Origin: Treponema sp.
GTDB taxonomy: Bacteria; Spirochaetota; Spirochaetia; Treponematales; Breznakiellaceae
Reading direction: 5' to 3'
Assembly: GCA_009784935.1 (NCBI GenBank)
Contig: WQXI01000003.1
Coordinates: forward strand, 1-64,000
DNA: 64,000 nt
Shown here piece by piece: positions 6,614 through 58,320 of the stretch. Below the pieces are notes generated by a model. That model searched no databases. It was not told the DNA's origin and saw nothing but the letters and a program-made list of their open reading frames with translations. The position numbers and the translations under genes are program-made. The first letter of the stretch is position 1. Each line of letters opens with the position of its first letter.

Positions 6614-7567
6614 ATGTCAGAACAACAAAAAGAAATGAGAATGGCTTACGTTGACACCATCATGGCGTTGGCTGAAAAAAATAAAAATATCGTAGTGCTC
6701 GAAGCTGACTTAATGAGCTGCACAAACACAGGCATTTTTAAAAAGGCATACCCTGACAGGTTTTTTAACTGCGGTATCGCAGAAGCAAATATGATCGGCG
6801 TAGCCGCCGGTCTTAGCACATTGGGAAAAATTCCTTTTGCGTCAGGCTTTGGCTGTTTTTCATCAAGGCGTGTATACGACCAGTTTTTTCTTTCTGCAAA
6901 TTATGCAAAGTTAAACGTTAAACTAATCGGCACAGACCCCGGCGTTACGGCTGCCTTTAACGGCGGCACTCACATGCCGTTTGAAGAACTTGCATTAATG
7001 CGCGTTATTCCAAAACTCACGATGATAGAACCTTCTGATCCGGTCTCATGCGCCGCCTTTGTGCGTTTAATGGCAGAAGAATACGGCTGCCACTATTTAC
7101 GCATACCTCGCAAACCTGTGCCAAACCTTTACCCGGAAAACGAAACATTTAAATTTGGGCAGGCAAAAGTTTTAAAAGAAGGTAAAGATGTTTGCTTTAT
7201 CGCGCTTGGCAGTCTTATGGTTAACCAGTCTTTAAAGGCAGCCGAAAAACTTGCCGAAGCGGGAATAAGTGCAGGCGTGCTTGATGTGCTCACTTTAAAA
7301 CCAATTGACCGTGACGCAATTTTAAATCAAGCCGGCAAAGTACGCGCGATAATCAGCGCAGAAAACGCACAAATGATGAGCGGACTTGGCAGCGCGGTAG
7401 CGGAAATTATTGCCGAAGAAGGCTGCAATGCCAAAAATGGCTGCAAGTTTGCGCGTATCGGCATCAATGACGAGTTCGGCGAAGTCGGCACACAGGATTA
7501 TCTTGTAGACCGCTTTGGACTCGACGTCGGCAGCTTGGTAAAAAAAGCGCAGGAATTGTTAAAGTAA
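6614..7567 (+). CDS. Transketolase, C-terminal (pyrimidine-binding) subunit
   Basis: This is the second half of the split transketolase, forming the active site with the preceding subunit. It shows the pyrimidine-domain hallmarks: EADLMSCTNT, FFNCGIAEANMIGVAAGL (with the Glu that activates thiamine diphosphate) and FASGFGCF. A C-terminal transketolase_C domain follows (ALGSLMVNQSLKAAEKLAEAG, IISAENAQMMSGLGSAVAE). Its 317-residue length is standard. It has a clear AAGGAG ribosome site. A similar fold occurs in 1-deoxyxylulose-5-phosphate synthase, but the split arrangement and spacing argue for transketolase. Confidence 0.93.
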   Translation: MSEQQKEMRMAYVDTIMALAEKNKNIVVLEADLMSCTNTGIFKKAYPDRFFNCGIAEANMIGVAAGLSTLGKIPFASGFGCFSSRRVYDQFFLSANYAKLNVKLIGTDPGVTAAFNGGTHMPFEELALMRVIPKLTMIEPSDPVSCAAFVRLMAEEYGCHYLRIPRKPVPNLYPENETFKFGQAKVLKEGKDVCFIALGSLMVNQSLKAAEKLAEAGISAGVLDVLTLKPIDRDAILNQAGKVRAIISAENAQMMSGLGSAVAEIIAEEGCNAKNGCKFARIGINDEFGEVGTQDYLVDRFGLDVGSLVKKAQELLK

Positions 7568-7592: not shown

Positions 7593-8852
7593 ATGAAAAA
7601 ATTATTTTCCCTTACAGTAATATTAGTACTGGTTGCAGGCGTAGTGTCAGCGCAAACCGGAAGAATATCTGTTTGGTCTTTCACCGATGAATTAGATCAA
7701 ATGATTAAAGATTATTTTAGGTCTGCGCGGCCGAGAATACAAGTTAATTTTTCCATTGTTCCGTACGAACAATTTTCGTATAGATTAGATAGGGTTTTTA
7801 CATCAGGCAATGGAGTGCCGGATGTTTTTGCTCTAGAATCCGCATCTGTACGCAAGTATGTCGAATCAGGACAATTACTGGATCTTACCGATATTTATGA
7901 AACAAACAAAAACAGGCTTCTTAGATACCCTGTAGAAGTAGGTACCCACAACGGCAGGGTTTATGCATTATCGTGGCATGCAGCGCCGAGCGCAATGTTC
8001 TATCGCCGAAGCCTTGCAAGAATGTATCTTGGTACTGATGATCCTGCAATAGTACAGGAATATTTTTCCAGCATGCCAAAGTTTCTGGAAACAGCGCGTC
8101 TATTACGGGAAAGATCTAATGGGACATGCGCAGCGGTTACCGGTTTGGATGAACTGCGTAATGCATTCCTTAGCACAAGATCCAGATCTTGGGTAGATAA
8201 CGGGAGACTTGTGATCGATCCCGCTGTAGAACAATACATGGATATTGCAAAAGAACTGCGCGATAGCAATTTAACAGGCGATATTGGTCAATGGTCGGAA
8301 ACTTGGTTCGAAGGCATGAATAGAAGTGTTAGAGGCAGAAACGGACAGTGGATAGAAATATTTGCATATTTTCTTCCTACTTGGGGACTCGATTATGTTC
8401 TTAAACCAAACTCTTACGATACATCAGGCGATTGGGCTGTGATACAAGGTCCGTCGCCGTATTACTGGGGAGGTACATGGCTTGCGGCGTGGAGAAATAC
8501 CCCAAATGCAGAAGCGGCAAAAGAGTTTATTCGTTATTTTATTTCTGATGTCGATTTTTCGGCAGGATATGCAATGTCCTCAAGAGAGCTTGTCAGTAAT
8601 ACAGAAGCTATCGAACAGGTAAGCCATAATTTTAACGAGCCTTTCCTTGGCGGACAAAATCATTATACAGTGTTTGCAGATATTGCGCAAAGAGTAAACG
8701 GCAGATTAGGTCATGGAACCGGCGAAATAGACCTGATAATTAATGACATTTTCTTTACCTCTCTAGAAACCTACGTAACAGGGCAAAGAACAAAACAACA
8801 GGCTCTTTCTGATTTTAGAGCAGAGGTCACAAGAAGAACCGGAATCAGGTAA
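7593..8852 (+). CDS. Secreted extracellular solute-binding protein (ABC sugar type)
   Basis: A cleavable signal peptide (MKKLFSLTVILVLVAGVVSA, cut before QTG) precedes a family-1 sugar-type binding protein of about 400 residues. Landmarks include ISVWSFTDELDQMI, VPDVFALESASVRKYVESGQLLDL, SWHAAPSAMFYRRSLA and the late APNAEAAKEFIRYF-like helix. There is no lipobox, so the protein is periplasmic. No permease genes follow. The last nine codons (EVTRRTGIR) are repeated 1458 bases downstream beyond the hipBA cassette, which suggests that the cassette entered at the 3' end of this gene. It begins 25 bases after transketolase and may be co-transcribed with it. Confidence 0.85.
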   Translation: MKKLFSLTVILVLVAGVVSAQTGRISVWSFTDELDQMIKDYFRSARPRIQVNFSIVPYEQFSYRLDRVFTSGNGVPDVFALESASVRKYVESGQLLDLTDIYETNKNRLLRYPVEVGTHNGRVYALSWHAAPSAMFYRRSLARMYLGTDDPAIVQEYFSSMPKFLETARLLRERSNGTCAAVTGLDELRNAFLSTRSRSWVDNGRLVIDPAVEQYMDIAKELRDSNLTGDIGQWSETWFEGMNRSVRGRNGQWIEIFAYFLPTWGLDYVLKPNSYDTSGDWAVIQGPSPYYWGGTWLAAWRNTPNAEAAKEFIRYFISDVDFSAGYAMSSRELVSNTEAIEQVSHNFNEPFLGGQNHYTVFADIAQRVNGRLGHGTGEIDLIINDIFFTSLETYVTGQRTKQQALSDFRAEVTRRTGIR

Positions 8853-8858
8853 TGTAAG
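8823..8858. repeat. 36-bp direct repeat, left copy (3' end of solute-binding protein gene)
   Basis: This copy matches 10281-10316 at 34 of 36 bases. It covers the last nine codons and stop of the solute-binding protein gene and six bases beyond. It also holds the stop codon of hipA on the other strand. Flanking sequences outside the 36 bases are unrelated. Confidence 0.9.
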
Positions 8859-9951
8859 TATTAACAACGGCTTTGACTTCTTCCATAATGCCTTCTGCTT
8901 TACGGAGGTCAAGTCCGGCTTTTTTTGCAACTGACACTATGTGCTTTTCTGACGGATTACGCCCTTCGCCGTCAATTGCAGTTGCGTGCTCTCCGCTCAT
9001 TCCTTCCGAATAAACTAAATCATACACAGGCGAAACCTGCCATTTTTCTTCATCGTAAATAAAAGAAAAGTTTTTTGAATGGTCATCCCTATTATGAGAA
9101 AAAACATTAAAACACATAAGACGAAACATTTTTTCCAGTTCACGAAAATCGCGGGTTAATTCCAATGTTAAAGTCATAAGGCTATTATAATCCAGCGCCG
9201 GTAACCTATGGCTTGTATCAAGTAATCCGCTTGCAGAGATCATAAAAACTTTTTTGCCCCTTGATTTTCTGTCGAATCGTTTTATACCAAAATATTTATC
9301 TTCGAATAACTTTATTTCCGGTACAATAAGCCCTGCAGCTTTTGCGGCAGTCATATAATTAAATTCTATTTTTCCAATGTCTTTTGGATCCATGCTGGCG
9401 CGGAATTTTACAATCCAGTCTTCTTTACTCTTGCCGTTGTCAATCTTAATTAAAACTTTTGGGCGTGCGCCGCCGGAACTTCCGCCGAGTTTTACCAGTT
9501 CTTCGAGTTTACGTACAGTCTTTGCGTCGTTTAAAATCGCTTCGGCATCTTTTGCCAATGTATCCAAATCATGCTTTTTTACATCATTAATAACAAAATG
9601 TTCTTCGGGCTTATATTCCAGTGCGCCCATACCGCTTGATCCGACTATTGCAAGGCGATCTAGCGCAGAAACAGAAACGGGGTCAATGCGTCTCTTTATA
9701 AGCATTCGGTCTATTAATAAACGACCCCACCCGTCAGGAAGACTGTCATTAAATACGCCAAAGTTGCCGTCAAACGGATCACGCGGAGCGATAAATACAC
9801 GTTTTTCCAGCGGTAGTTTAAACGGAGAAATAGAAAAACCATCCCGCAGCCATTCGGAATCATACTCAAACGCCAAAAGCCTTTCTTGCGTTTCTGCAAT
9901 TCGCCCTACCCTGCGTTTATCACAAAAAACATTTAAAAAATTATTTTTCAT
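8845..9951 (-). CDS. hipA: HipA-type serine/threonine kinase toxin
   Basis: HipA kinases phosphorylate translation components (glutamyl-tRNA synthetase in E. coli) and induce dormancy. The N-terminal HipA_N subdomain occupies about residues 5-110. The kinase domain follows with the ATP loop GGSSGGARPK (156-165), Lys182 in WIVKF, the catalytic segment N287-R-D-D-H-S-K-N294 and the metal-binding Asp311 (SPVYDLV). All key residues are intact, so the toxin should be active. At 368 residues it is slightly shorter than E. coli HipA (440). The start overlaps the hipB stop by four bases (ATGA). Its stop lies inside the left copy of the 36-bp repeat. Confidence 0.93.
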   Translation of the reverse strand: MKNNFLNVFCDKRRVGRIAETQERLLAFEYDSEWLRDGFSISPFKLPLEKRVFIAPRDPFDGNFGVFNDSLPDGWGRLLIDRMLIKRRIDPVSVSALDRLAIVGSSGMGALEYKPEEHFVINDVKKHDLDTLAKDAEAILNDAKTVRKLEELVKLGGSSGGARPKVLIKIDNGKSKEDWIVKFRASMDPKDIGKIEFNYMTAAKAAGLIVPEIKLFEDKYFGIKRFDRKSRGKKVFMISASGLLDTSHRLPALDYNSLMTLTLELTRDFRELEKMFRLMCFNVFSHNRDDHSKNFSFIYDEEKWQVSPVYDLVYSEGMSGEHATAIDGEGRNPSEKHIVSVAKKAGLDLRKAEGIMEEVKAVVNTYIT

Positions 9952-10214
9952 TTATTTTTCATTCCTATAATCTCATCAATCGACTGATAATTTTTACGTT
10001 CAAAAAGCCTGTCAAAATCATTTTCATAACCCAGCACAACAGCGATACGAAGAAGACTTGTAAGTGAAATCTCGCCGGAGTTTTCAAAGCGTTTAATCGA
10101 ACCAAGCGAAACCCCAGAACGGCCAGCCAATTCAGCTTGAGAAATCTTGCCTTCACGCCTTCTGGAGCGGATTTTTTGCGATAAACCTTGTTTTATATCT
10201 AATATATTAGCCAT
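9948..10214 (-). CDS. hipB: HipB-type helix-turn-helix antitoxin
   Basis: The 88-residue protein has an XRE/Cro-type helix-turn-helix (about residues 12-65: GKISQAELAGRSGVSLGSIKRFENSGEISLTSLLRIAVVLG) followed by a short tail. HipB neutralises HipA and represses the operon. It is the first gene of the pair and overlaps hipA by ATGA. Codons 2-5 are part of an operator-like palindrome that also occurs in the promoter, so autoregulation is likely. Confidence 0.92.
   Translation of the reverse strand: MANILDIKQGLSQKIRSRRREGKISQAELAGRSGVSLGSIKRFENSGEISLTSLLRIAVVLGYENDFDRLFERKNYQSIDEIIGMKNK
10199..10210. promoter_or_regulatory. Second hipB operator-like palindrome inside the hipB start
   Basis: The 12-base palindrome ctaatatattag recurs here within hipB codons 2-5, identical to the core of the promoter palindrome. 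The centres of the two copies are 41 bases apart, about four helical turns, which would suit cooperative binding of two repressor dimers. Confidence 0.6.
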
Positions 10215-10736: not shown

Positions 10737-12167
10737 ATGGACTCAAATTTAAGTTTCTATAAAGAAAACAAAAGGTATAACGATGCTATCACGTATCTAA
10801 AAAAAGAGCAAGGAAAAAATCCGAATAATGCTCAAATTAAAGCAGATTTAGGCTATTTTTATGATATTAACGGCTGCAAAAAAGCAGCTATTAAAGTTTA
10901 TTCTGAAGCAATAAAATTAGATCCAAATTTACCCATAGTTCGCCATAATCGAGGATGGGTAAATTTAAGATTTGGACGTATGAATGATGCATTAGCAGAT
11001 TTTAATGCTGCAATTTCATTAGGTCTTAAAGATTACCGCACATTTGAGGGGCGAGGTCTCTGCCATAAGTCTTTGGGCTTATTGGATTTAGCAGTCAATG
11101 ATTTTGACAAAGCAATCGAGTTAAATAAAGCAAGTGTAGAATTAATTATAAACCGTGCCCACTTATATTTTAGGCTTAAAAAATATGAACAAGCCAAGGA
11201 AGATCTTTATATGAGCTTGGGATTAAAATATTCAAATTTCGATCCAACAGATTATGTTTCTATTTTTCATAGAAGTAACCTTGAAGAAGGAAAAGAGACA
11301 GGAAACATGATTATCAAAGCAGGATTTAATATAGAAATAGAAAAGAATGATGATATGTTTGTAATAATGCCTTGTACAAGTACAATCAACAGAACTATTT
11401 TGCCATTGATTAATTTTGATATCAAAAAAGATGTGCTTTTGCATTTACAAAAATATAAAGATTGTTATGCTTTTAAAGCAGAACCTGATATTGAAAATAC
11501 AATAAATAAAACCGATTCTCAGTATTTGGATAGTATTAATATAGATAAAGACAAACTTCGTTTCTATTTGTCTTTAGATAATGTAAAATGCTTTGCGTTA
11601 TATAAAGACAAAAAACTCGTCGCATGGGAAATTGGAATAATAAACGATGGAGGAAAAATATATTCTTCAATTATCAGGTTCTATGATCCTGCAGAACAGT
11701 TAACCGGAAAAATTCGTATTAATTTCCTAGTCGAGCATTTAAAAAGTATTGGGGTAACTTTAATTGACTTTGGATCAAGTAAAGATAAATGGAATAATCT
11801 CTTTAGTTTTGGAGCAGAAAATATTGATGCGCACACTTATTTACAATTGTTTAAAGAACTAAGTTCCTCCCCAAAACCTATTTTTTACATAGGGAGCGGA
11901 AAAATTAAAGAAAATATCACAGGGAGATATTTTATGGTTCTCTTAAATAATGATAATACAACACAAGATTTTGTTGTAGACCTTCTAATGGAATTATTTA
12001 ATTTTGATCTGCATAAGGCAACAATGCTTATGCTCGAAACGCATCGTAATGGTAAAGGTGTGATAGGAACAACTGATGCAAAAATGGCAGTTCCATTAGT
12101 TCAATATATTCAAAAAACAGCAAAAGATAATGGACATACATTAATTTGCTTATTAGAGGAGGTTTAA
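10737..12167 (+). CDS. Three-domain protein: TPR repeats, L/F-tRNA-protein-transferase-like domain, ClpS domain
   Basis: Residues about 8-165 are TPR repeats (AIKVYSEAIKLDPNLP, AVNDFDKAIELNKAS). Residues about 190-385 resemble leucyl/phenylalanyl-tRNA-protein transferase (Aat, a GNAT-like fold): an early AGF segment and VAWEIGIINDGGKIYSS, where Aat has LVGGLYGV..G..F.GESMFS. LIDFGS follows at 342-347, where Aat has LIDCQ (Asp344 kept, Gln replaced). Residues 398-476 are a ClpS domain: VLLNNDNTTQDFVVDLL, ETHRNGKGVIG and AKDNGHTLICLLEE. The ClpS histidine in the N-degron pocket is kept, but the gatekeeper Met is Gln. No signal peptide, so cytoplasmic. The fusion suggests target choice, N-terminal marking or recognition, and delivery to ClpA in one chain. 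Activity is unproven. Confidence 0.7.
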   Translation: MDSNLSFYKENKRYNDAITYLKKEQGKNPNNAQIKADLGYFYDINGCKKAAIKVYSEAIKLDPNLPIVRHNRGWVNLRFGRMNDALADFNAAISLGLKDYRTFEGRGLCHKSLGLLDLAVNDFDKAIELNKASVELIINRAHLYFRLKKYEQAKEDLYMSLGLKYSNFDPTDYVSIFHRSNLEEGKETGNMIIKAGFNIEIEKNDDMFVIMPCTSTINRTILPLINFDIKKDVLLHLQKYKDCYAFKAEPDIENTINKTDSQYLDSINIDKDKLRFYLSLDNVKCFALYKDKKLVAWEIGIINDGGKIYSSIIRFYDPAEQLTGKIRINFLVEHLKSIGVTLIDFGSSKDKWNNLFSFGAENIDAHTYLQLFKELSSSPKPIFYIGSGKIKENITGRYFMVLLNNDNTTQDFVVDLLMELFNFDLHKATMLMLETHRNGKGVIGTTDAKMAVPLVQYIQKTAKDNGHTLICLLEEV

Positions 12168-12548: not shown

Positions 12549-15500
12549 TCAGAGCAATCCATCAATCAACACAAAAGCAGCCCAGTTGTAAGGATCAGGG
12601 TAAAGTTTGCGTATTTTTTTTTGGGCTTCTCTAAAAGCATCTTGTTTGCTTTTTCCAGACAGCCAGTTACGGTAAAAATCGGTCATCATCATTTGAGAAG
12701 ACTTATCCTCAACCTGCCAAAGACTCATAATAATTGTTTGTGCTCCCGCAAGCTTAAACGCTCTTTGCAACCCAAATACCCCTTCGCTGTTGTCTACCTC
12801 ACCTAATCCGGTTTCGCAGGCTGACAATGCCACAAGTACCGCTCCTGTTAGGTTCATCTGTGCGACTTCGTTTGCAAGAAGAATACTGTCCACTTGCTCC
12901 CCTTTTTTGCAATTATTGCCTCCGGCAAACACAAGCCCGGATCTTAAAAGCGGATTTAAGTACACCCTTTTACCGCCTCCAAGACGTTCCAGCCATTCGT
13001 AATCTTTATTATTTCTTCTATCATCCTGTATGAAGAACCCATGCGTCGCAAGGTGTATCACATTGGTTTGTTTATCTGTACTCTTGAATGATTCTTTGTT
13101 ACCTTCAGCACGCATGTACAATTCTGACACTATATCTTTTTCTTTTAGCCTTTTGTGAATCTCTTCACTTTCTTTCGCCGAATAAGCCAAGTGCTCCCAT
13201 TCTCCGCTGCGTTTTTTAAGTTCATCATGCAGTTCAAGTTTTTCTAAATCATCTTGATTTTCCGGAACTTTATTCTTTATACTTTCGGAACTCAGATTAT
13301 AATAAATTCCGCCGTAAACGACAGCTGACTTCGGCTTGCATTCCCTCTTTGTGTTGCGGCGTACCACTTCACGTGTGCTGGAAACAAGATTTAAGTCGTA
13401 TATATCTGTAAGATGTTTTCCCTTTTCTACAGGAATTGCGCTAAAACTGATTTTGTGTAATAACCCCGATGGCGAATAGTAAATGGTTTTAACGCCTTCT
13501 AAAACTTCCTTTAAAGGTTTCCAAACTGTGTTATACAGGTCATAGTTATTTTCATTGTAGAGAATGTTAGTAATTCTTTGTGAATCTTTTTCGCCTTCTG
13601 ATTTTTTAAAGATTGAAGCAAGCTGACTTTCTTCACACAGGGGAACCCATTCGGGTGCATCCATGCCTGTTCGTAAAATTAGAGCCGCATACTGCGTAAC
13701 TGTTACTTGTTCATCATATTTGTCACAAAGTATAAAAGAGACAAACTCGATAGCGGCTTCATTTGCTTGTAAATGATCCCGAACATTCTGCCATCCAAGG
13801 TTAAAGTCCTCATAAAATTCTTTGAAAGCTCGAGAGGTTTGGGTGAGATATTCATCCAGCGTATTTGCCTTTAATTCCAGATCATGTATGTACGATTCAT
13901 TGCCATCGTTCCTCTGTAATAATACTTCGATCTTTTGTTTAAGGCGATCAAGCTCTTCAAATTGTGAGATAAGTTTCTTGTCATTTGTATTGTAGATAGA
14001 ATCCCGTACTGCATTAGCTGTTCGAAGCAGAAGACCTTTTATAAATAGAGTGTTGTCATAGCTGAGGGAATTACTTTCAGGAGTGGTGTAGAACCAAGAA
14101 AGAAAATAGCTTGCTTCAAGCGTATTTGTCATTTCATTCCCGTAATGATTCCGTTGACGTGTTGAGAGTAAAGAAAAATTTTTAATTACCAGAGTTTTAA
14201 TAAGAATATCCGCTTCTAGTTTATACTTGATGGCTTGTGCATAATTACCCATGTCACAATATAACAAATTTAGATTGTTTAATGATATGGCATAAACCTG
14301 ATTTTTCACCCCCAGTCTTATTTCTCTAATTTTTTTTGCTTCAAGGAAATATTCCTTTGCTTTCTCATAATCTACCATGTATCTATACAAGTGTCCCAAA
14401 TCATCTAATAATATAGCATAATTTGGGTGTTCTTTGCTCTGTATCATCTTCCCATTGTGCAGCAATTCCCAGTAATGTTTAGCTTCAAGAAGATGCTCTT
14501 CTGCTCTAAAATCGTCTTTCTTGGACAAATATAGCTTGCCCATTCTTTTTTCCATACCTGCATTAATTAAAAGATTTTTATTTGGTGTTTTTACGCAGAT
14601 ATGATACGCCTTAAGAAGATATATTTCCGCTAAGTCAAAGTCTCCTTTGGATAGATAAAGTTCACTTAGGTCGACTAATGAGTCCATATAATCCATAGGT
14701 TCTCTTTCCTGCGCACTTTTTATTATGTCATTCGCCTTAAGATAGTTTTCCTCTGCCAATTTAAAATTCCCCATGGATAGGTACTTTTCACCCAAATTTC
14801 TTAATGAGTCTGCATCATTCAAAACATCCTTTTCTTGTGTGTCATCTTTTATGTCTTTCGCTTCAAGAGAACATTCTTTCGCTGAGGAATAGTCTCCCAT
14901 GAATTGGTATAATTGACTCAGATCATTTAATAAATTCACATATATTAAACTTTTTTTGCTTGGCGTTTTTTTTAATATGTTTTTTGCCTCAAGATAATTC
15001 TTTATTGCTGAATTATAATCTCCCATACTACTATATAGGTGAGCTAAATAAATTAATGAATCAGAATAGCTCAGAGGATCCTTTCTCCATGTCCTTTTTT
15101 CTATGTTTTTAAATTTAAGCAAGTATTTTTTTGCAGAGAGAAAATTTCCAAAAATTATATATAGTTTACCCATGTTGCGTAACAGTTTAGTATAAAATGG
15201 ATGTTTCTTTACTTGTACATTTTTTGTGATTTTTTCTGCTTTACGATAGTAATCCCATGCTTTATTATTTTCTTTAAAATAATAGTACGCACTACCTAGT
15301 TTGAATAAGAACATAAAATATTCTAATGTGTCTTTTTTCCGAATGCTTTCTTCAATATTTTTTAGCTTAATTTCATATTTTATCCATGAAACATCGTCTT
15401 CAAGCAGGCGATATACTATGCCTAAAGCCATAATTGCATCATAATAATCCGGTTTCAGCTGTAATGCCCGCTCTAATTTCTCAATGGCTTTAGAATAATC

Positions 15501-15566
15501 ACCATTTTTAATAAATTTTTCGCTTTGTTCATAGAAAGACTCAGCGGTTTCATTATCACTTAACAT
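12549..15566 (-). CDS. TPR-CHAT caspase-like protease
   Basis: The 1005-residue protein starts with about ten TPR units of the kinesin-light-chain spacing (residues 5-480). A helical linker (about 480-640) and a C-terminal CHAT domain (about 680-1005) follow. The catalytic pair is intact: His842 in HLATHGFF and Cys917 in LSACETGLG. Other CHAT landmarks are LLLANEVAQM-like, GVFGLQRAFKLAGAQTIIMSLWQV and WAAFVLIDG at the end. CHAT proteases include Craspase (Csx29) and separase-like defence enzymes, where a sensor releases protease activity on a specific substrate. It is the last gene of a four-gene minus-strand operon. The likely substrates or sensors are the unknown proteins upstream. No signal peptide. 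Confidence 0.9.
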   Translation of the reverse strand: MLSDNETAESFYEQSEKFIKNGDYSKAIEKLERALQLKPDYYDAIMALGIVYRLLEDDVSWIKYEIKLKNIEESIRKKDTLEYFMFLFKLGSAYYYFKENNKAWDYYRKAEKITKNVQVKKHPFYTKLLRNMGKLYIIFGNFLSAKKYLLKFKNIEKRTWRKDPLSYSDSLIYLAHLYSSMGDYNSAIKNYLEAKNILKKTPSKKSLIYVNLLNDLSQLYQFMGDYSSAKECSLEAKDIKDDTQEKDVLNDADSLRNLGEKYLSMGNFKLAEENYLKANDIIKSAQEREPMDYMDSLVDLSELYLSKGDFDLAEIYLLKAYHICVKTPNKNLLINAGMEKRMGKLYLSKKDDFRAEEHLLEAKHYWELLHNGKMIQSKEHPNYAILLDDLGHLYRYMVDYEKAKEYFLEAKKIREIRLGVKNQVYAISLNNLNLLYCDMGNYAQAIKYKLEADILIKTLVIKNFSLLSTRQRNHYGNEMTNTLEASYFLSWFYTTPESNSLSYDNTLFIKGLLLRTANAVRDSIYNTNDKKLISQFEELDRLKQKIEVLLQRNDGNESYIHDLELKANTLDEYLTQTSRAFKEFYEDFNLGWQNVRDHLQANEAAIEFVSFILCDKYDEQVTVTQYAALILRTGMDAPEWVPLCEESQLASIFKKSEGEKDSQRITNILYNENNYDLYNTVWKPLKEVLEGVKTIYYSPSGLLHKISFSAIPVEKGKHLTDIYDLNLVSSTREVVRRNTKRECKPKSAVVYGGIYYNLSSESIKNKVPENQDDLEKLELHDELKKRSGEWEHLAYSAKESEEIHKRLKEKDIVSELYMRAEGNKESFKSTDKQTNVIHLATHGFFIQDDRRNNKDYEWLERLGGGKRVYLNPLLRSGLVFAGGNNCKKGEQVDSILLANEVAQMNLTGAVLVALSACETGLGEVDNSEGVFGLQRAFKLAGAQTIIMSLWQVEDKSSQMMMTDFYRNWLSGKSKQDAFREAQKKIRKLYPDPYNWAAFVLIDGLL

Positions 15567-15587
15567 TAGAATTTTTCCATATATTTT

Positions 15588-16505
15588 TTACTCTTCGTTA
15601 TCAAAAAAATCTCTTAATATTTGATCAACATCAGCAAAGTTAGGATCAATTGCTTTTACCTTATCAAAAGCATTTTTGGCTTCTTCTTTTCTGCCTTCTC
15701 TTAAATGAATTGAACCAATAAAATAATAGACTATGACTTCTAAATTATATTTATTAATATTAGTTATCTCTTCAAAATCTTTTAAAGCATTATAGTGGTC
15801 AAATATTTCATAATACGCAAGTCCTCTTACAAGTAGTGCAGGTAGAGAAGTTTCATTCTTTATTTCTAAAACTTTACTTGCAAATTTAATTGCATTATCA
15901 ATATCTTCACTTTTTAAATATAATACTGCAAGATTCATTAAAGCTTTGTAATCATCAGGGTTATTTTTAATTTTACTAATATTTTCATTTATCTGAATAT
16001 TTAGATTGGGCTTTTGTTTGTTAGAAACATTTCCTTTTCTTGTTCGACCTGTATAAAAAGGAAAATCAATTTTTATTTCACAAATAGTAATATAATAATA
16101 TCCCAAATTTTTTTTATTTTCTTTTATTTTTTCTTTTATTCTTTTACATAGATCAAGTGTATAATAATAAAACATTGGATTACACATGCATGCTGTAAGA
16201 AGTAACTTAATATTTTTATCTTTTTTTTGAATATTATATTTATTTTTAACATCATTTGATATATAATAATTTTTACAATAATAGTCAACAACCTCACTAA
16301 CATCATTTTGTGCAAGAAGACCCACTATTTCTAAAGATAACATTTCATCTTCCATATTATTCTTTTTAAAAATACTTAACATTTTCTTTATTTTTTCTTT
16401 GTTTTCCTCAGCACAATAATATATATCATCAAAAGTTACATGGTTTTCTAACATAAGAGTATTTAATAATCTGCTTGCTTTTTGTTTCATTAAAGTACTT
16501 GTCAT
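15588..16505 (-). CDS. TPR protein of the CHAT operon
   Basis: The 305-residue, lysine/asparagine-rich protein has an unrecognised helical N-terminal half and TPR repeats in the C-terminal half (about residues 165-300: ALMNLAVLYLKSEDIDNAIKFASKVLEIKN, FIGSIHLREGRKEEAKNAFDKVKAIDPNFADV). The start ATG overlaps the upstream stop as ATGA and has GAGGAAAG before it. The gene is markedly AT-rich compared with the flanking housekeeping genes. It sits between an unknown 613-residue protein and the TPR-CHAT protease, so it may be an adaptor bringing them together. Confidence 0.75.
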   Translation of the reverse strand: MTSTLMKQKASRLLNTLMLENHVTFDDIYYCAEENKEKIKKMLSIFKKNNMEDEMLSLEIVGLLAQNDVSEVVDYYCKNYYISNDVKNKYNIQKKDKNIKLLLTACMCNPMFYYYTLDLCKRIKEKIKENKKNLGYYYITICEIKIDFPFYTGRTRKGNVSNKQKPNLNIQINENISKIKNNPDDYKALMNLAVLYLKSEDIDNAIKFASKVLEIKNETSLPALLVRGLAYYEIFDHYNALKDFEEITNINKYNLEVIVYYFIGSIHLREGRKEEAKNAFDKVKAIDPNFADVDQILRDFFDNEE

Positions 16506-18343
16506 TTCTTTCCTCTTAAATTATTAATTTCTTCTATCTTTATTATTATAGTATGCAAAATATTTCTTATTTTTTTACGAAATTCAACTATTATTACTAT
16601 ACTTATTAGCTTTCCTTTTGAACCTTTAATATCTATATATAATTCAACCATTTTTTTAACAAAATGTGTAATATTATGTTTTTGAATACTCATTTTATAT
16701 AAGTATTTATTTCTTGAGAACATAACACTAATATTATATTTTAATTCATTAATAAATTGTACGTCTTCTTTAGTATTGTAATCATCACTTGGAAATTCTT
16801 TATCGACCACTAGATTAATAATATTATTTATTTTATTATGTTCAAATTCTCCAAAAAATATGTTTTCTGGAGAATGATTTACCTCGCTAATAAATAACCC
16901 CCTTTCAGTAGATATAATATCGCTAATTTTAATTTCTTTACCATCTTTACCATAAATAGGATTATCAATAGATACTATTTTGTTTTTTTCTATTTCATCC
17001 AATAATTTTAAAAATATTTTGGAAAATATAAATCTTATATATTTATTATTAATAAAATCTTTATTTTTAGGATCATTTTTTATCATATTTAATGTATCTA
17101 ATTTATTTTTATAATTATTTTTACATTTATGAATACTTCCACTTATAACATCTTTTATATTTTTTATATTTTCAATTAATAAATTATCAGATAAAACAAC
17201 ACCTAAAATATTAATTTTTTCTATTATCTTGTTTTTTTCTTTTTGTGTAAGTATTGATACATAAGACACTCCTTTAGAATAAAGTTCATAAATATATTTA
17301 CAATAATCATCCATTAATATTTTTGCAACATAAGTTTCCATTAAAAATTTGTTATTTTTTTTATTATTTATTATTTCATATAATGCTTTTATCATATTGA
17401 AAATATCATTATCATCAATTTTAACATATGCTTCCTTTAATATTTTCTCTGATTTTTCACTGATAAATTCAGAAGGTAATAATCGGATCACTTTGTTATA
17501 TCCCTTTTTTATATATTCGATATCTTCAGCATTCAATACTCTTTTATTTTCTATAAAATCATTTAATAATATTTTCATTCTTTTTGTAAATATTTTATTA
17601 TCAGGCTGAACTAAAAATGAATTGCTACTTTCGTCTTTTAATAAGAAATACATTGCCTTAATAATATCATAAACCTCATCTTCATTTTTTGCTATGAACG
17701 CATTTGCTAATATTTCTTTTGATTCTGGCATTAAATAATCAGATGATAATATTATAGCTATTTGATTAAACTTATTACGAATAGTTGTTTTGTTTCCGTC
17801 TGTTATATTAATATCAATGTTCTTATACTTTTTTAATACTTTTGACTTTTTATCATAGTATTGAATATTTCTAATTAATGTTTCTGGTTTAGTTGGAATA
17901 TGTATGTCGAAACCTTCTGCACATCCTTCTAAAATATAATTAATAATGTTATTATATATATCCATTAGTTTTTCATCTTTTCTAACTCTACTTAAAAATT
18001 TATTATCTATCTTTACATTTATTGGTGATTTAATATCTTCAAGATTATAAATTAACATATTTTTATGTCTTTCTTCTATATTTAATTTATTTATTAATAC
18101 TTTATTTAACGAGCTGATAGAATGATCATTATTTATTTTTTCCATAATTTCTTTTTTAATATGTTCTTTAACTATTTCATCATTCAATGTGCCTAGTAAT
18201 ATTTTCATAGTTGAATATATTGGATTTTCTAATTTATATAATATCTTATAATTTTCTTCGTATCTATTAAGAAGATCTCTATAAAAAGGTATCGTTTCTT
18301 TAAGATGAGAAAAAAATTGTTTTTTATAATGTTTATAAACCAT
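16502..18343 (-). CDS. Unrecognised 613-residue helical protein with internal repeats (CHAT operon)
   Basis: I recognise no family. The sequence is very AT-rich, lysine/isoleucine/asparagine-rich and almost entirely helical in pattern. Residues about 195-470 contain three related segments of about 92 residues beginning near 195, 286 and 377. Each has a (I/L)xSxxL(L/M)xExxK(E/N)I opening followed by a D(I/V)...IKALY-type helix in the first two. The solenoid-like repeats suggest a binding scaffold. The start follows the stop of the preceding gene as TAAATG and the end overlaps the next gene by ATGA, so it is firmly part of the CHAT operon. It could be a sensor or substrate of the protease. Confidence 0.65.
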   Translation of the reverse strand: MVYKHYKKQFFSHLKETIPFYRDLLNRYEENYKILYKLENPIYSTMKILLGTLNDEIVKEHIKKEIMEKINNDHSISSLNKVLINKLNIEERHKNMLIYNLEDIKSPINVKIDNKFLSRVRKDEKLMDIYNNIINYILEGCAEGFDIHIPTKPETLIRNIQYYDKKSKVLKKYKNIDINITDGNKTTIRNKFNQIAIILSSDYLMPESKEILANAFIAKNEDEVYDIIKAMYFLLKDESSNSFLVQPDNKIFTKRMKILLNDFIENKRVLNAEDIEYIKKGYNKVIRLLPSEFISEKSEKILKEAYVKIDDNDIFNMIKALYEIINNKKNNKFLMETYVAKILMDDYCKYIYELYSKGVSYVSILTQKEKNKIIEKINILGVVLSDNLLIENIKNIKDVISGSIHKCKNNYKNKLDTLNMIKNDPKNKDFINNKYIRFIFSKIFLKLLDEIEKNKIVSIDNPIYGKDGKEIKISDIISTERGLFISEVNHSPENIFFGEFEHNKINNIINLVVDKEFPSDDYNTKEDVQFINELKYNISVMFSRNKYLYKMSIQKHNITHFVKKMVELYIDIKGSKGKLISIVIIVEFRKKIRNILHTIIIKIEEINNLRGKK

Positions 18344-19114
18344 TTATTTCTCTCTATTTTGAAGATTATCTGCAGTAAAACCTAAAATTGTATACACACT
18401 ATGAGCAAAACGCCGATATCCTGCATAAATATTTTTTGGTTTATGAAAACTTATACTCGATAAATCCCATTCAAAACATTTTTCTTCTATATTATACTCT
18501 CCATATATTTTTTCACTATCTACAATATTAAAAAACAATTCTGGAACAGATTCATTAAAATTAAATCTTTGATATTTTTTTTCAAACTCATCAGAAAATA
18601 CTTCTTCATCAATATTAATTAAGTATTCTTGAATATTAAAACATTCTTTTTTTGCTTTTTCTATTAAATTTTCAAGTGTCTGCAATTTTGCCTGCTTTCT
18701 TAATTCTTTTTTTAAATTATCTTCTTGTATTTTATTTAAACTAATAAATTTATCTTTGTTTTGACCAAGCAATTTATTAAAATATAATTCTACCAAATAA
18801 TTACCCTTAATTAAACTAAGAAATAGATTGTCTCTAAGCATACTAAGAATATCAAACCCCATTATTGGTAAGGGGTTAGGTTTCAAAAAATATTGCATAT
18901 GTGAAGGTAGTTTATGAATTTCATCTTTATCAAATCGAAAATATTTTTTTAATATTTCAAATGGAGGGTAAAAAACATAAGGAAAATACTCTAAAAATAA
19001 CTGTATAGTCCAATCATTTTGAGCATCAGTTATATAATCATCTATCATTAAAAGCAATCTCTCCTTATATGTCAAAATATAATTATGCCTTATCTGAGGA
19101 AAATTGTCAATCAT
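18344..19114 (-). CDS. Unrecognised 256-residue protein (CHAT operon)
   Basis: The family is unknown to me. The protein is AT-rich in coding sequence, aromatic in the N-terminal part (FLEYFPYVFYPPFEILKKYF) and charged in the middle (coiled-coil-like, about residues 120-165). It ends with a YRRFAHSVYTILGFTADN segment. No signal peptide or clear membrane segment. I prefer the ATG at 19114 because it overlaps the stop of a 30-codon ORF as ATGA; an in-frame TTG at 19120 is the alternative. The stop is contiguous with the next start (TAAATG). Confidence 0.6.
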   Translation of the reverse strand: MIDNFPQIRHNYILTYKERLLLMIDDYITDAQNDWTIQLFLEYFPYVFYPPFEILKKYFRFDKDEIHKLPSHMQYFLKPNPLPIMGFDILSMLRDNLFLSLIKGNYLVELYFNKLLGQNKDKFISLNKIQEDNLKKELRKQAKLQTLENLIEKAKKECFNIQEYLINIDEEVFSDEFEKKYQRFNFNESVPELFFNIVDSEKIYGEYNIEEKCFEWDLSSISFHKPKNIYAGYRRFAHSVYTILGFTADNLQNREK

Positions 19115-19203
19115 ACGCAAAAAACCTGTGATTCAATACCTATTACCTCCATCTTATGCTTCTTGAACAAAAAATCTGGATAAAACAAAGGGATATTCAT
19201 CAT
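19111..19203 (-). CDS. 30-residue ORF at the head of the CHAT operon
   Basis: This short frame begins with two Met codons (MMNIPLFYPDFLFKKHK...) and has the strongest ribosome site of the operon, AAGGAG five bases upstream. It ends in an ATGA overlap with the 256-residue gene. The placement indicates that ribosomes enter here and couple into the next gene. It may be a true small protein or a leader peptide. It is too short for family assignment. Confidence 0.5.
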   Translation of the reverse strand: MMNIPLFYPDFLFKKHKMEVIGIESQVFCV

Positions 19204-25388: not shown

Positions 25389-27080
25389 ATGATCAACGAG
25401 AAAAATGAAAAGAATCAAAAGACATTCGCGATAGCGTTAGCCTCCTATGGCTCCCCAAACCATTCGGACGTTTGGCAAGACCTTACCCTCAATACATTGA
25501 AAGGTCATATTATGGGAGTTTTTGGTGATAAGGTTAGCGTTGATACATATCGTATTCACAGTAATAACGATATTGATAAGCTTATACAAAATTTTTCAGA
25601 AAAGAACTATGGTCTTATTGGATTTTCACTTGATAATGCTTCTAAAGAATTTTTCTTTAAAACTTTGTCATGTATAAATAAAAGTAATATTACTACTCCT
25701 CCAATTATTGTGGGCGGAGTTTTAGCTACTTCGGCTCATGATGTTTTAATTGAAAATAATGAAGATTTTATTAAATTAAAACCATTGATTGTAACCGGGA
25801 GGGGAGAAGTGGCTCTCCAAGAGTATGTTCATTCATTATTGAATGATATTCCATTAGATAAGCCTTTGGATAACACATATTTGTATAACCCAATTACTGG
25901 TAATTATGAAAAAGGAAAAACAAAAAGAGTCGATCTTAGCAAATTAAAATATCCTCCAGCTGCAAATTCGAATACTGATAATAAAAATCAAGTTCAAGCT
26001 GTTCAGAACTCATGTAGCTGCTATGGCAAATGCTCTTACTGCAGTCAGCATGGTACAGCAAATACATGGCAATCTTTTCCCATAGAAAGGATCAAGATGG
26101 ACCTCGAATCTGCTATTTTGCAAGAAAAGTATGAATTGGAATTTGTAGACGAGGACTACTTCGGATGGCCCACGACCAAGCATTTAGAGAGAGCATATAA
26201 GTTAGGTGACATTATAAACGAACTTAGACTTAAGTATCATGTCAATATCCAGTTTAGAATCTTCACTAATCCAGTCGTAATCGCAAATAAGAATGTAAGC
26301 TCGGATGGAAGAACTTTCCGTGATTTACTTAAGTATTATCAAAATTTGGGTCTTTCTCGTGTATACCTTGGCATAGAGAGTTTCTCTGCTGATCAACGCC
26401 TCCGCTACCATCGCCGAGATTCTCTGGATGATTGCTTTTCTGCAATTCAGCTTTTAGATGAACTCGGAATTGAGTGCGATGCCGGCTTTATAGCATTCGA
26501 CGCAGAATCTAGTTTGCAAGACTTGATCAACAATTGTGCGGGCATAAGAAAGTCCAATCTTCTAAAGTATAATACATGGCCTATGAGAGCAATGATTTTA
26601 ACATACGGGACCGCCATGTATCACCGTATAAAAAGTCTTGGATTGTTAGGTGTAAGATCAGAAGAAAATCCTGCCTCATTCACGTATAAGTTTTTAAACC
26701 CTGATGTTGAGCAAATATATAATGGAATAAAATTCATAGCAGACTTAAGTTCTTCGCTGTTTATAATATTAAAGTATTTCTTTAAGCAGTTCTGCATGAG
26801 CGAAAAACACAAAGATAAGGTACAAACAATTTTTTGTTTTATTAAAAAAAACGGAGAACTCAATCTTGAGTACATGGAAGACATGATAGCTGAATTAAAA
26901 AATCATAACAGTATTGCCAAAAGCACCGCTGTAATCCGGCAAAAGTTATTAAATTTAGTGAATGAAATTAATAACAATATCGGTATATTAGATGTTTTTG
27001 ATTATGATACTACTCATTTACAAAAAAGCATTAATAATACATTACAAGCTCTTGCATCAGGAGATAATAATGTTCAGTAA
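25389..27080 (+). CDS. B12-binding-like/radical SAM protein
   Basis: The N-terminal 165 residues follow the cobalamin-binding-like Rossmann pattern of class B radical SAM enzymes (FAIALASYGSP, GLIGFSLDN, PPIIVGGVLATSA, LIVTGRGEVALQEYV). The radical SAM motif C-Y-G-K-C-S-Y-C (CX3CX2C) lies near residue 213. A TIM-barrel with FVDEDYFGWP, IQFRIFTNP, RVYLGIESFSADQRLRYHRRDS and IECDAGFIAFD follows. The DxHxxG cobalamin motif is not evident, so the N-domain may not bind B12. The helical C-terminal 150 residues are unassigned. The reaction is unknown. The gene end overlaps the next TPR/Aat-like gene by 11 bases, tying it to the N-degron-like genes. Confidence 0.8.
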   Translation: MINEKNEKNQKTFAIALASYGSPNHSDVWQDLTLNTLKGHIMGVFGDKVSVDTYRIHSNNDIDKLIQNFSEKNYGLIGFSLDNASKEFFFKTLSCINKSNITTPPIIVGGVLATSAHDVLIENNEDFIKLKPLIVTGRGEVALQEYVHSLLNDIPLDKPLDNTYLYNPITGNYEKGKTKRVDLSKLKYPPAANSNTDNKNQVQAVQNSCSCYGKCSYCSQHGTANTWQSFPIERIKMDLESAILQEKYELEFVDEDYFGWPTTKHLERAYKLGDIINELRLKYHVNIQFRIFTNPVVIANKNVSSDGRTFRDLLKYYQNLGLSRVYLGIESFSADQRLRYHRRDSLDDCFSAIQLLDELGIECDAGFIAFDAESSLQDLINNCAGIRKSNLLKYNTWPMRAMILTYGTAMYHRIKSLGLLGVRSEENPASFTYKFLNPDVEQIYNGIKFIADLSSSLFIILKYFFKQFCMSEKHKDKVQTIFCFIKKNGELNLEYMEDMIAELKNHNSIAKSTAVIRQKLLNLVNEINNNIGILDVFDYDTTHLQKSINNTLQALASGDNNVQ

Positions 27081-28446
27081 AAATATTGAATATGAAAATG
27101 ATTGGGAAAAACTCTTTGATATTGGCAATGATTTTTATTTTAAAAAAGACTTTTTAAACGCTAAAAAGTTTTATTCTAAAGCAATAAATATTTTAGAATC
27201 TAAAGATCATTTATCACCTATGTTAAAACGCAATTTGACAAATATAAAGCATAATGCAATTTCTATTCTTGATGATTTAGGCGACAGAGCGCTTGCAATA
27301 AACGGCATGCTTGATCTAGTGGAGGAAAATCCTGATTATTACCTTGCGTATAACTCATTAGGATGGCTGTACAAGGAAGAAGCTAGAAAAATTGACAGGC
27401 AGATTAATAAGCTATCGCAAAAAGGATTTACTAACTTAAATACACAGCATGAGCAAAATAATATAAAATCCTTATATAAAAAAGCGATTCACTATTATGA
27501 CTTGTCAATATCTACAGAAAGACCCTATTGGTTACATACATCCTATGGATCAAAAGGGTATTGCCTTAGTGAAATAAAACAATACGAGAAAAGTCTAGAA
27601 TGCTATATTACAGCTGACAAGCTAAAAAGATTTAACCATGACTATGTATATTCCATCGGATTAATGTATTTTAAATTATTAAATTATAATTCTGCGCTGC
27701 ATTACATCCGTGAAGCAACCAAGATTAGATATAAAAAAATATACTCGGATAACATGGTTTCTTTTTTTTCTCCGCCTCAAGCAGATGATTTTTTTAATGC
27801 ATATAAAAATCTGTTTATTACAGGATACAATCCCAGTTACTTAGGAAATATCTTTAAAGAAGACTCTATAATTTTTCCTTCCAGAAATGACAGAGTCTGC
27901 TTATCACCGATTAGTAATATTTTTAAAGGAAAAACATATTTAAAAGAGTCAAAAAAACGCATCGAAAAAATCGGAGAGCGTTACAAATTAATATTTGAAT
28001 ATGACGATCATGCAGAAGTTCTAAAACGATTAAGCGAATGTTATAAAAATAATAATTTTTTTAAAATCGTAAAGAAGTTATCATTAATTAGTTCTGATGA
28101 CTTTAAAATAGTCACTGTTATATTATTGCTGGATGGAGATTTTGCATCTTGTGATTTGGCTGCCATTATTAAAAACAGAATATATATTAGTTTTTCCGGT
28201 ATCACTATTGTCAATAACTCCGGCAAAGATCTATTTATATTAATTGCTAAACACTTAATAAAAATGGGAATCCGGGTATGGGACGTTGGATCCACAAGTT
28301 TTGGCGATCCTTTTTTAAAATATAAACTAGATCATGGCTTTGAACAGGTTACAACAGAAAAATATCTGGAAATATTTAATTGTGCCGTTTCGTGCACAGA
28401 ATATAAAGGAGTAAGCGATGGACAGCGAAATGAAAGCTTTTTTTAA
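27070..28446 (+). CDS. TPR plus L/F-transferase-like protein (second copy)
   Basis: The start at ATG 27070 has AGGAGA six bases upstream inside the previous gene; the longer frame from 26992 has no ribosome site. Of 458 residues, about 10-225 are TPR-like (NDFYFKKDFLNAKKFYSKAINILES, KQYEKSLECYITADKLKR). About 245-440 resemble Aat: FITGYNPSYLG, IIFPSRNDRVCLSPI, LLDGDFASCDLAAIIKNRIYISFSG, LIAKHLIKMGIRVWDVGS and the ending EQVTTEKYLEIFN, where Aat has a DYLNYL-type end. Asp405 matches the Aat IDCQ aspartate; the Gln is replaced by Gly. The gene overlaps its neighbour by 29 bases. No ClpS domain is fused, unlike the 10737 gene. Confidence 0.68.
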   Translation: MFSKNIEYENDWEKLFDIGNDFYFKKDFLNAKKFYSKAINILESKDHLSPMLKRNLTNIKHNAISILDDLGDRALAINGMLDLVEENPDYYLAYNSLGWLYKEEARKIDRQINKLSQKGFTNLNTQHEQNNIKSLYKKAIHYYDLSISTERPYWLHTSYGSKGYCLSEIKQYEKSLECYITADKLKRFNHDYVYSIGLMYFKLLNYNSALHYIREATKIRYKKIYSDNMVSFFSPPQADDFFNAYKNLFITGYNPSYLGNIFKEDSIIFPSRNDRVCLSPISNIFKGKTYLKESKKRIEKIGERYKLIFEYDDHAEVLKRLSECYKNNNFFKIVKKLSLISSDDFKIVTVILLLDGDFASCDLAAIIKNRIYISFSGITIVNNSGKDLFILIAKHLIKMGIRVWDVGSTSFGDPFLKYKLDHGFEQVTTEKYLEIFNCAVSCTEYKGVSDGQRNESFF

Positions 28447-29671
28447 TGACTATATGATAGATGCAAATAAATATTATTTTCAAAGAGATTTTATAAAAGC
28501 GTCAGATTACTATAAAAAGGCATTAAAAATAAATCCAAATGATCCGGATGCTCAATTAAATGACGCATGCTGTGACGATGAAATAGGTCAAACTGACTTA
28601 GCAATCGAAAAATTAGAAAATATTGTTAAAAACCATGACTATTTTACATTAGGGTTTTATAATCTTGGCTTTCTTTATAAGAAAAAAAAGTTATATTCAA
28701 ATGCCATTAAAGTTTATACTAAAGCAATTAATCTAATACTGGATAAATATTTGTTTATAAATAAACCATCATCAAATAAACTCTTATTAGACAGCTATTG
28801 CGGAAGAGGATCGTGTTTCGAAGATCTTTTATTATATGATGAGGCAGAGAGAGATTACATTGAATCAATAGATATAAATCCAAAATGTTCATATATTTAT
28901 AAAAATCTCCTGCGTATCAATTTAAAAAGGAATGAAATTGAATTGGCGGAATATAATGCAAAAAAAGCATTTAAATTAATATACCCAGAATGCAGGGATC
29001 CTGGTAAATTTGTTACAGTTGTAACATTTGATTCGCTTCACGAAAAAGTAGAAACAGTAAGTAATACGATTAAAGCTGGATTTTATCCCGGATATATCGG
29101 AGAATTCGGAAAAACAATGGTTCTAATGCCGTTATTATGCGGTAGAATCATTTTACATCTTGATAAAATTAGAATAAACAAATTTATGACTAGGCATTTA
29201 AAAAATACAAAATATTATTTAGAAGAATCAAAAAATGTCACATTTATGGCTGATAAATTAATTGAGTATTATAATGCGTATAAAAAAACCGTGGTTGACC
29301 CTTCTTATTTATTATTTTTACGGTATTACCTTGAGGCTCTTAATCAAACAGATGATCATTTAATAGGAACCAGCGTCTCATTATTTGATGAAAACAATGA
29401 ATATTGTGCCGGAGATTTGGGCGTGCTAAATGGAAGAATATATACTTCTTTTTCTGGTCATAAATTAAAAAACAATGCAGGCACATCTCAATTAATTTTA
29501 TACGCAAAAGTTTTAGAAGAAGATAAAAAATGTCTTATCAAAGACTTTGGACCTGACAATTTCAATTTTAACCAATATAAGCTAAGACTTAAGGCTCAAT
29601 TATATACAGCAAACGATTATCTTAACCTGGCAAGAAAAATAAATCCTTATGCAAATAAATATTTTTATTAA
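28418..29671 (+). CDS. TPR plus L/F-transferase-like protein (third copy)
   Basis: The 417-residue protein has TPR repeats over about 12-190 (YYFQRDFIKASDYYKKALKINPNDPDAQLN is the clearest). An Aat-like domain spans about 205-410. This copy gives the clearest match: IKAGFYPGYIG, then VLMPLLCGRIILHLDKIRINKFMTRHLK for the Aat segment with the SPDPR and HISRSM motifs. YCAGDLGVLNGRIYTSFSG then stands for LVGGLYGVALGGVFFGESMFS. KDFGPD at 375-380 stands for IDCQ, and TANDYLNLARK for the C-terminal helix. GESMFS is not conserved, so substrate or chemistry probably differs. AAGGAG lies seven bases before the start. It precedes clpS by 27 bases. Confidence 0.72.
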   Translation: MDSEMKAFFNDYMIDANKYYFQRDFIKASDYYKKALKINPNDPDAQLNDACCDDEIGQTDLAIEKLENIVKNHDYFTLGFYNLGFLYKKKKLYSNAIKVYTKAINLILDKYLFINKPSSNKLLLDSYCGRGSCFEDLLLYDEAERDYIESIDINPKCSYIYKNLLRINLKRNEIELAEYNAKKAFKLIYPECRDPGKFVTVVTFDSLHEKVETVSNTIKAGFYPGYIGEFGKTMVLMPLLCGRIILHLDKIRINKFMTRHLKNTKYYLEESKNVTFMADKLIEYYNAYKKTVVDPSYLLFLRYYLEALNQTDDHLIGTSVSLFDENNEYCAGDLGVLNGRIYTSFSGHKLKNNAGTSQLILYAKVLEEDKKCLIKDFGPDNFNFNQYKLRLKAQLYTANDYLNLARKINPYANKYFY

Positions 29672-29698: not shown

Positions 29699-30019
29699 AT
29701 GGTAAATTTATTAAAAGAAAAATTATCAAAAAAGACAAAAACTAAAAACAGTCAAAAACAAAAAAAGGAGAAGGACTGCAGTATTATTCTTTTAAATGAT
29801 CCGTATACAACCATGGATTTTGTGGAAAACGAAATACTGTCAGGTATTTTTAATTTAAGAAAAAAAGACGCAAAAAGAATAACTCTTGCTGTCCATAATA
29901 ATGGCAGCGGAATAATCGGTGTATTTCCCAGAGATACAGCAATAAGAAAAATAGAACAAGTACATTTAAAGGCTGCGGCGTATGAATTCCCGCTTAAATG
30001 TATATTACAAGAATGTTAA
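29699..30019 (+). CDS. clpS: ClpS adaptor protein (N-degron recognin)
   Basis: After a basic N-terminal tail of about 25 residues (lysine-rich) comes a complete ClpS fold: IILLNDPYTTMDFVENEIL, ITLAVHNNGSGIIGVF, HLKAAAYEFPLKCILQE. ClpS binds N-terminal Leu/Phe/Tyr/Trp and hands substrates to ClpA. Pocket residues are partly kept. Asn-Asp of NDD is present but the third residue is Pro, the Thr and gatekeeper Met are present (TTM), and the pocket His is present (AVH). The usual Met one turn before that His is Thr. The specificity may therefore be altered. clpA starts 13 bases later, the classical clpS-clpA order. Confidence 0.9.
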   Translation: MVNLLKEKLSKKTKTKNSQKQKKEKDCSIILLNDPYTTMDFVENEILSGIFNLRKKDAKRITLAVHNNGSGIIGVFPRDTAIRKIEQVHLKAAAYEFPLKCILQEC

Positions 30020-37267: not shown

Positions 37268-37386
37268 GGATTCAGCTACGCTCAGGGTACCACCCCGCTA
37301 ATTTCTTGTCAACGCACGGCATAGTACTTGCAATAAACCCAAAATTTAACTACTATTATAGAATATTAATGTATAGGGGTTTAGTT

Positions 37387-58286: not shown

Positions 58287-58320
58287 AATGTATATGTTAT
58301 AATTCATATTATTTTATTTG

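Follow-up and report, generated by a model that had tools for sequence, protein, structure and literature searches.

Does the CHAT protease encoded in the genome of a Treponema sp. of the Breznakiellaceae act together with the proteins encoded beside it, and if so, in what kind of process? The stretch that raises this question comprises the first 64,000 nucleotides of contig WQXI01000003.1 (GenBank assembly GCA_009784935.1; hereafter the window), in which positions 12549-19203 of the minus strand hold a compact set of genes running from a short leader open reading frame (ORF) through the genes for three proteins, D, C and B, to that for protein A, which combines tetratricopeptide repeats (TPRs) with a CHAT domain. 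Comparisons across the family point to a module of three components, the CHAT protease, B, and a protein (DC) of which D and C are most likely the two halves, and we give about an even chance to its being a dedicated protease-partner module with a role in biological conflicts. The components are as follows:

19111-19203, minus strand: leader ORF of 30 codons, read directly from the sequence, with an AAGGAG ribosome-binding site at 19214-19209
18344-19114, minus strand: D, 256 residues, most likely the N-terminal half of a DC protein, with relatives in genomes G565 and G393
16502-18343, minus strand: C, 613 residues, internally duplicated and likely forming the C-terminal half of the DC protein
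17486-17755, minus strand: first repeat of C, about residues 197-286, from self-alignment
17222-17485, minus strand: second repeat of C, about residues 287-374, from self-alignment
15588-16505, minus strand: B, 305 residues, an N-terminal domain without known family (about residues 1-130) followed by C-terminal TPRs
12549-15566, minus strand: A, 1005 residues, a TPR array and a CHAT caspase-like protease domain (about residues 677-1001)
13041-13043, minus strand: codon of the predicted catalytic His842 of A, an invariant alignment column
12816-12818, minus strand: codon of the predicted catalytic Cys917 of A, an invariant alignment column

An earlier, sequence-only reading had described an operon of a TPR-CHAT protease, a TPR protein and two further proteins, and both this composition and its coordinates are borne out. 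The junctions that it listed (ATGA, TAAATG and ATGA) are all present, with the correction that the third is the overlap of C with B, while A is not overlapped and lies beyond a 21-nucleotide gap. The first ATGA arises where the TGA of the leader overlaps the ATG of D, and at TAAATG the stop codon of D is immediately followed by the start codon of C. No terminator-like site lies between the operon genes (all four that were found sit inside A), and the family-search results for the operon proteins include no transcription regulator. A scan for sigma-70 promoters was discarded as evidence, with 41 found against 48 expected. The leader ORF has no relative that we could see, and its frame is offset from that of D by a single base, at a stretch of six T; a frameshift site as a proven link between the two was rejected, there being a T run only and no relative with a leader.

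The DC and B partner proteins

A search for the CHAT domain in 195 genomes of the family (E <= 1e-15) recovered just three: the source genome, G393, which belongs to the same genus, and G565, which belongs to another genus of the family. In all three, relatives of DC and B are encoded near a CHAT gene. On the minus strand of G393 (L192) a 623-residue DC protein is followed by a relative of B and by two CHAT proteins of 1071 and 1276 residues. On the plus strand of G565 (L190) the series starts with a 232-residue lipoprotein bearing B-like TPRs and goes on with a 460-residue DC protein, and a 382-residue protein that joins a B-like N-terminal domain to a transmembrane segment and TPRs; a WD40 gene and a short ORF separate the last of these from a CHAT gene cut by the contig end. 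Looking for the unknown proteins beside CHAT genes in other genomes, the check proposed with the earlier reading, thus gave a positive answer for both B and D, and we recognize, as far as sequence comparison can define it, a module of DC, B and CHAT in three species. Among the 1651 ORFs examined, no further locus was matched by the profile of DC or by that of the N-terminal domain of B.

D and C share a reading frame of 871 codons that is interrupted by one stop (TAA), and they match parts of single proteins elsewhere, so they are most likely halves of one protein. The description of the two as proteins of no known family therefore stands as to family and most likely fails as to number. Neither reaches the cut-off of any Pfam or NCBIfam family, PADLOC and PHROGs gave nothing noteworthy for them, and no PDB chain was notably similar to C, D or the DC profiles. 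D aligns with the 460-residue G565 protein with a score of 87 (reached by 0 of 500 shuffles) and with the 623-residue G393 protein with a score of 76 (reached by 3 of 500), and a D-family profile match, in a set of four sequences, has an E-value of 1.2e-5; the G393 and G565 proteins score 147 against each other, where the highest of 500 shuffles gave 74. These similarities make a good case for D as a member of a new DC family. C falls behind D in the correct order on the G393 protein (C from about residue 124, the 623-residue protein from about residue 355) and is likely to be the second half of a DC family protein. Judged from its frame, C is certainly coding: it stays open for 613 codons where 0.06-0.11 stops would be expected at each, and the two alternative frames on that strand contain 74 and 113 stops. 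The tandem duplication in C consists of divergent copies of about 90 residues each, with a local score of 114 (500 shuffles: mean 34.8, standard deviation 6.7, highest 60).

The G393 relative of B is matched at E 4e-31 over B residues 5-302 with 28% identity, and a profile of the G393 and G565 proteins matches the N-terminal domain of B (domain E 3e-9), which by these matches constitutes a second predicted new family. Between the window and G393 the CHAT core is 55.5% identical, the TPR part 39.6%, and the partners B and D about 31% (for D over the alignable 128 residues). Partners that change more quickly than the protease core are consistent with a sensor or target exposed to shifting selection. 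In G393 the distance from the operon to genes whose sequences read as nusG, rplK and rpoB is about 15 kb, so that it occupies another chromosomal place than the operon of the window.

Wider searches added little. Direct searches with C of the phylum (392 genomes), the genus (39 genomes), a collection of genome contigs, viral contigs, phages and plasmids returned C itself or weak chance matches only, and the C-only search of the genus failed even to recover G393. Searching the phylum with D (296 genomes) gave a match at E <= 0.1 in 18, its own genome included; eight of these loci were realigned, and those inspected in detail seem to be chance matches, among them an antisense frame and ATP synthase gamma. 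In viral contigs and plasmids direct searches with D found no relative, those with B found none in viral contigs and in plasmids matched no more than its TPR part, and the D and B profiles found nothing in viral contigs. Against plasmids the G393 DC protein found nothing and that of G565 one weak match (E 0.2). Seven uncharacterized sister-genome proteins (six encoded in or beside the variable site considered below, one an Abi_C protein) showed no similarity to C, D or B in single-sequence hhalign comparisons.

Two further genes were observed in these neighborhoods. The G565 cluster (L190 353-10600) includes a Peptidase_C14 caspase gene close to those for the WD40, lipoprotein TPR, DC and CHAT proteins, and in G393 a gene for an FtsZ/tubulin-like GTPase (PF00091, 3.9e-33; L192 3141-4064) has its end 2 nucleotides away from that of the second CHAT gene.

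The protease and its compartment

A is predicted to be an intact member of the CHAT (PF12770) caspase-like peptidases, exceeding the curated cut-off with the His/Cys pair kept: its domain scores 198.3 bits against a cut-off of 24 (E 2.3e-58, residues 677-1001). The intact His842/Cys917 pair noticed earlier proved correct in position, and both residues, along with His838, are invariant across eight aligned CHAT domains. A further has seven TPR_12 stretches and is the sole CHAT gene found in the 2.37-Mb source genome in a search at E <= 0.001.

In a Bacteroidota-rich tree the nearest named relatives of A are those of L048 (a spirochaete) and L049 (Marinilabiliaceae), with supports of 97 and 100; A and both G393 CHAT proteins form a group (89/89) nested in a clade (96/99) that also contains three G565 CHAT proteins, two of which have signal peptides while the third has its N-terminus cut off. 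An export-type hydrophobic N-terminus is present in 79 of the 104 related CHAT ORFs, with 14 others near a contig end and 11 without one, as counted by a simple hydropathy test that takes the best of several starts and so favours finding a signal. A is thus placed phylogenetically inside a clade of exported TPR-CHAT proteins, yet lacks a signal peptide or lipobox: it starts at its first TPR, with an N-terminal hydropathy of -0.32 against 2.95-3.27 in the L048 and L049 proteins and two of the G565 CHATs. Nor does B have a signal peptide, and no part of the window operon has a hydrophobic N-terminus or transmembrane segment; all window and G393 parts look cytosolic. The simplest reading of this distribution would be one loss of the signal in the line leading to the window and G393. 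Given that the G565 partners, apart from its DC protein, are membrane-bound or lipoprotein-like, most of the module seems to have changed compartment. With export prevailing among its nearest relatives, the presence of a CHAT domain does not by itself indicate a defence role.

Neither L048 nor L049 encodes a relative of B, C or D beside its CHAT gene. Upstream of the former lies a gene for an FRG-domain protein (L048 6782-7720, 12 nucleotides away) and upstream of the latter one for a HipA-like protein (L049 571-1425, 54 nucleotides away).

The chromosomal site

The operon lies in a region of variable content, bounded as follows:

7568-37305: variable region holding the operon, between the transketolase-subunit gene and the LolA-like gene
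6614-7567: transketolase-subunit gene, named from its sequence and not from a family search
37306-38052: LolA-like gene

Besides that of the window, the genus has 19 full-length copies of the transketolase-subunit gene with at least 81% identity (three partial copies were not counted); the downstream stretch was examined for 16 of these and in addition for G417, with G421 and G405 left out on account of contig ends. The distance to the LolA-like gene, 29.7 kb in the window, is 0.4, 0.7, 0.9, 1.0, 8.4 and 10.4 kb in six of the 16 sisters. At this site G401 has an Abi_C protein, a 1394-residue SIR2-AAA protein, an integrase and a YhcG nuclease, G415 a type III methyltransferase, and G417 a kinase-WD40 protein adjoining a relative of the window gene at 19355, while G397 has HipA, ClpA and ClpS without the CHAT operon. 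These fillings are context and not proof of a defence island.

The TPR-ClpS gene that neighbors the operon is absent from the other 38 genomes of the genus (E <= 1e-20), as is any detectable C. Together with the different place of the G393 operon and the G397 site without a CHAT operon, this supports the later insertion that the sequence-only reading had suggested. The low guanine-plus-cytosine (GC) content on which that suggestion partly drew is confirmed by measurement (D 0.24, C 0.20, B 0.23 and A 0.36, the value along A climbing from 0.27-0.30 to 0.44, against 0.40 and 0.43 in the genes at 8845 and 19355); it is, however, no peculiarity of the operon. Genes at 49549-50118, 52222-52626 and 57582-58307, where most genes have 0.40-0.47, have values of about 0.20-0.22. 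With very AT-rich genes thus scattered over the window, we rejected low GC as proof of a single insertion event.

Several other features of the site deserve mention. A tRNA-Arg gene (CCT; 37195-37267) adjoins the LolA-like gene and is a possible integration point. A HipA-type kinase gene with an HTH gene occupies 8845-10214, and G397 has an 80% identical HipA in the same region. The G417 kinase-WD40 protein (1616 residues) resembles the PADLOC PD-T4-6 models in its kinase part (5.5e-17) and is preceded by an uncharacterized 444-residue protein, the two lying within L129 7563-13647. A family without a Pfam match, having HExxH-like motifs (HELGH, HERGH and HETGH) and members 31-35% identical, is encoded near the G393 CHAT operon (L192 17671-19998) and the G417 kinase-WD40 gene (L129 1650-3425 and 3-1631), and is possibly an undescribed metallopeptidase. 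The window further holds an N-degron-type set (10737-12167, 26992-28446, 28418-29671, 29699-30019 and 30032-32317): three related TPR proteins with a leucyl/phenylalanyl-transferase-like region (a weak PF03588 match in one), one of which is a fusion with a ClpS domain, together with ClpS and a ClpA-like ATPase. A general link between CHAT and N-degron genes was considered and rejected, as 78 CHAT loci contain no ClpS or ClpA relative and the G397 set occurs without CHAT.

Possible functions of the module

On the above observations A is most likely a regulated cytosolic protease with DC and B as sensor or substrate, and plausibly part of a conflict system. All parts would work in the cytosol, where A might be held inactive through binding of B, DC or both to its TPR array. 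Sensing of a trigger by DC or B would then release A to cleave its dedicated target, in the simplest case DC or B itself, the product of cleavage being what acts. The purpose may be a response to phage or another invader, possibly through growth arrest or cell death. We regard such a purpose as the most likely one because the module is patchy, its partners diverge fast, and the variable site carries Abi, SIR2 and kinase-WD40 proteins in sister genomes.

A number of results weigh against this interpretation. The association of DC, B and CHAT comes from three genomes and was found by looking beside CHAT genes, and at three of the four G565 CHAT places no DC or B is present within the part of the contig examined. 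Neither the operon parts A-D nor the partner proteins of G393 and G565 gave a useful fit to any defence model of PADLOC (PADLOC-DB 2.0.0). For C, the match to the whole G393 DC protein is borderline (7 of 500 shuffles reach it), that of residues 118-240 with residues 350-480 of the same protein (score 69, reached by 1 of 1000 shuffles) concerns a stretch chosen afterwards, and there is no match to the 460-residue G565 protein (342 of 1000 shuffles reach it). Single-sequence structure prediction of C and D, with a mean pLDDT (the per-residue confidence score) of 34 and 35, gave no usable fold. At the chromosomal site ordinary genes fill the variable stretch in G406, G409 and G392.

The closest functional parallel is the type III-E Craspase, where Csx29, a TPR-CHAT protein with H615/C658, cuts Csx30, the product of an adjacent gene, and in this way controls a sigma factor (PMC10028731). 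The likeness extends to a TPR array followed by CHAT and to several co-encoded partners, in type III-E Csx30, Csx31 and CASP-sigma, of which one is the substrate there (PMC10028731). The window differs in having no CRISPR-like repeat, and Cas7-11, looked for in the operon parts only, is missing from them. PDB searches found no sequence similarity of A, C, D or the DC profiles to the Csx29, Csx30 and Csx31 chains, all presumably in the set searched, A having no match to the Csx29 chain at E <= 0.01 and its CHAT part alone none at E <= 10. Borvo is an anti-phage system of a single gene, unlike the multi-gene operon of the window with its TPR array and partners. What the two have in common is CHAT, listed as the domain of Borvo in PMC10952713; A matched no CHAT system in PADLOC-DB 2.0.0, a release not checked for a Borvo model. 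Conflict systems of multicellular bacteria have CHAT, caspase or trypsin effectors in clusters with variable sensors (PMC10907252), and the operon resembles them in having CHAT as the effector domain beside variable proteins. It differs from the ternary (MoxR/vWA) and STAND conflict systems in that A-D include no MoxR, vWA or STAND NTPase. The exported TPR-CHAT proteins of Bacteroidota and spirochaetes belong to the same CHAT clade and have the same type of TPR, but differ from A in their signal peptide or lipobox and in having no B, C or D relatives adjacent. The arrangement was not found in literature searches on CHAT with termite gut or on CHAT protease substrate or operon (a review only); those on metacaspase or CHAT with tetratricopeptide in prokaryotes or Bacteroidetes yielded nothing, and for TPR-CHAT with Treponema or Spirochaet no CHAT term occurs among the matches listed.

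Of the alternatives, the one that survives best accepts the same module and gives it a signalling or regulatory role outside defence, as an envelope system moved to the cytosol where it would control a host pathway in the manner of an anti-sigma-factor protease. The largely exported CHAT relatives (the 79 of 104 ORFs) and the lipoprotein-like, membrane-anchored or signal-peptide-bearing parts of G565 are in line with it, as is the type III-E CHAT cut, which controls a sigma factor and does not kill directly (PMC10028731). Its patchiness (3 of 195 family genomes) and fast partner divergence are unlike a core regulator, and the operon is without a transcription regulator, so that we hold this role to be possible, at clearly less than an even chance. 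It is rather improbable that the window carries a decaying copy, the in-frame TAA and the one-base difference between leader and D being damage that leaves a protease without a working partner, or the stop being a sequence error. The single stop in the 871-codon frame, the relatives that are single proteins and the run of six T where leader and D meet would all agree with decay; 613 further codons stay open at the expected stop rate given above, an AGAGAG stretch with an immediate ATG suits re-initiation, B and A are intact, and the boundary between D and C falls after the alignable D domain and not within it. That A works alone, with B, C and D as unrelated AT-rich genes on a shared transcript, is very improbable, for while 64 of the 104 related CHAT ORFs lack a neighbor on the same strand within 60 nucleotides upstream (contig ends included) and L048 and L049 have other neighbors (the FRG-domain and HipA-like proteins), relatives of B and D near CHAT in two further genomes, in G393 at a different chromosomal place, largely exclude chance for B and D.

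A more elaborate scenario, to which we assign little probability, would have an envelope caspase-like surveillance set move to the cytosol while keeping DC and B, after which the DC gene was split into re-initiating halves (TAAATG) and enlarged by duplication. The cleavage products might then feed the neighboring N-degron set, with its three transferase-like TPR proteins, two ClpS domains and ClpA, as a bacterial counterpart to the formation of N-degrons by caspases.

CHAT proteases are bacterial relatives of the caspases, and dedicated partners are known in few of their systems. The window adds what looks like a real, previously undescribed protease system, possibly a defence switch, with two partner families that are new to the libraries searched. 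The exported version in G565 and the cytosolic versions in the window and G393 offer a natural comparison, and the compact, clonable operon allows the substrate of a CHAT protease to be tested directly.

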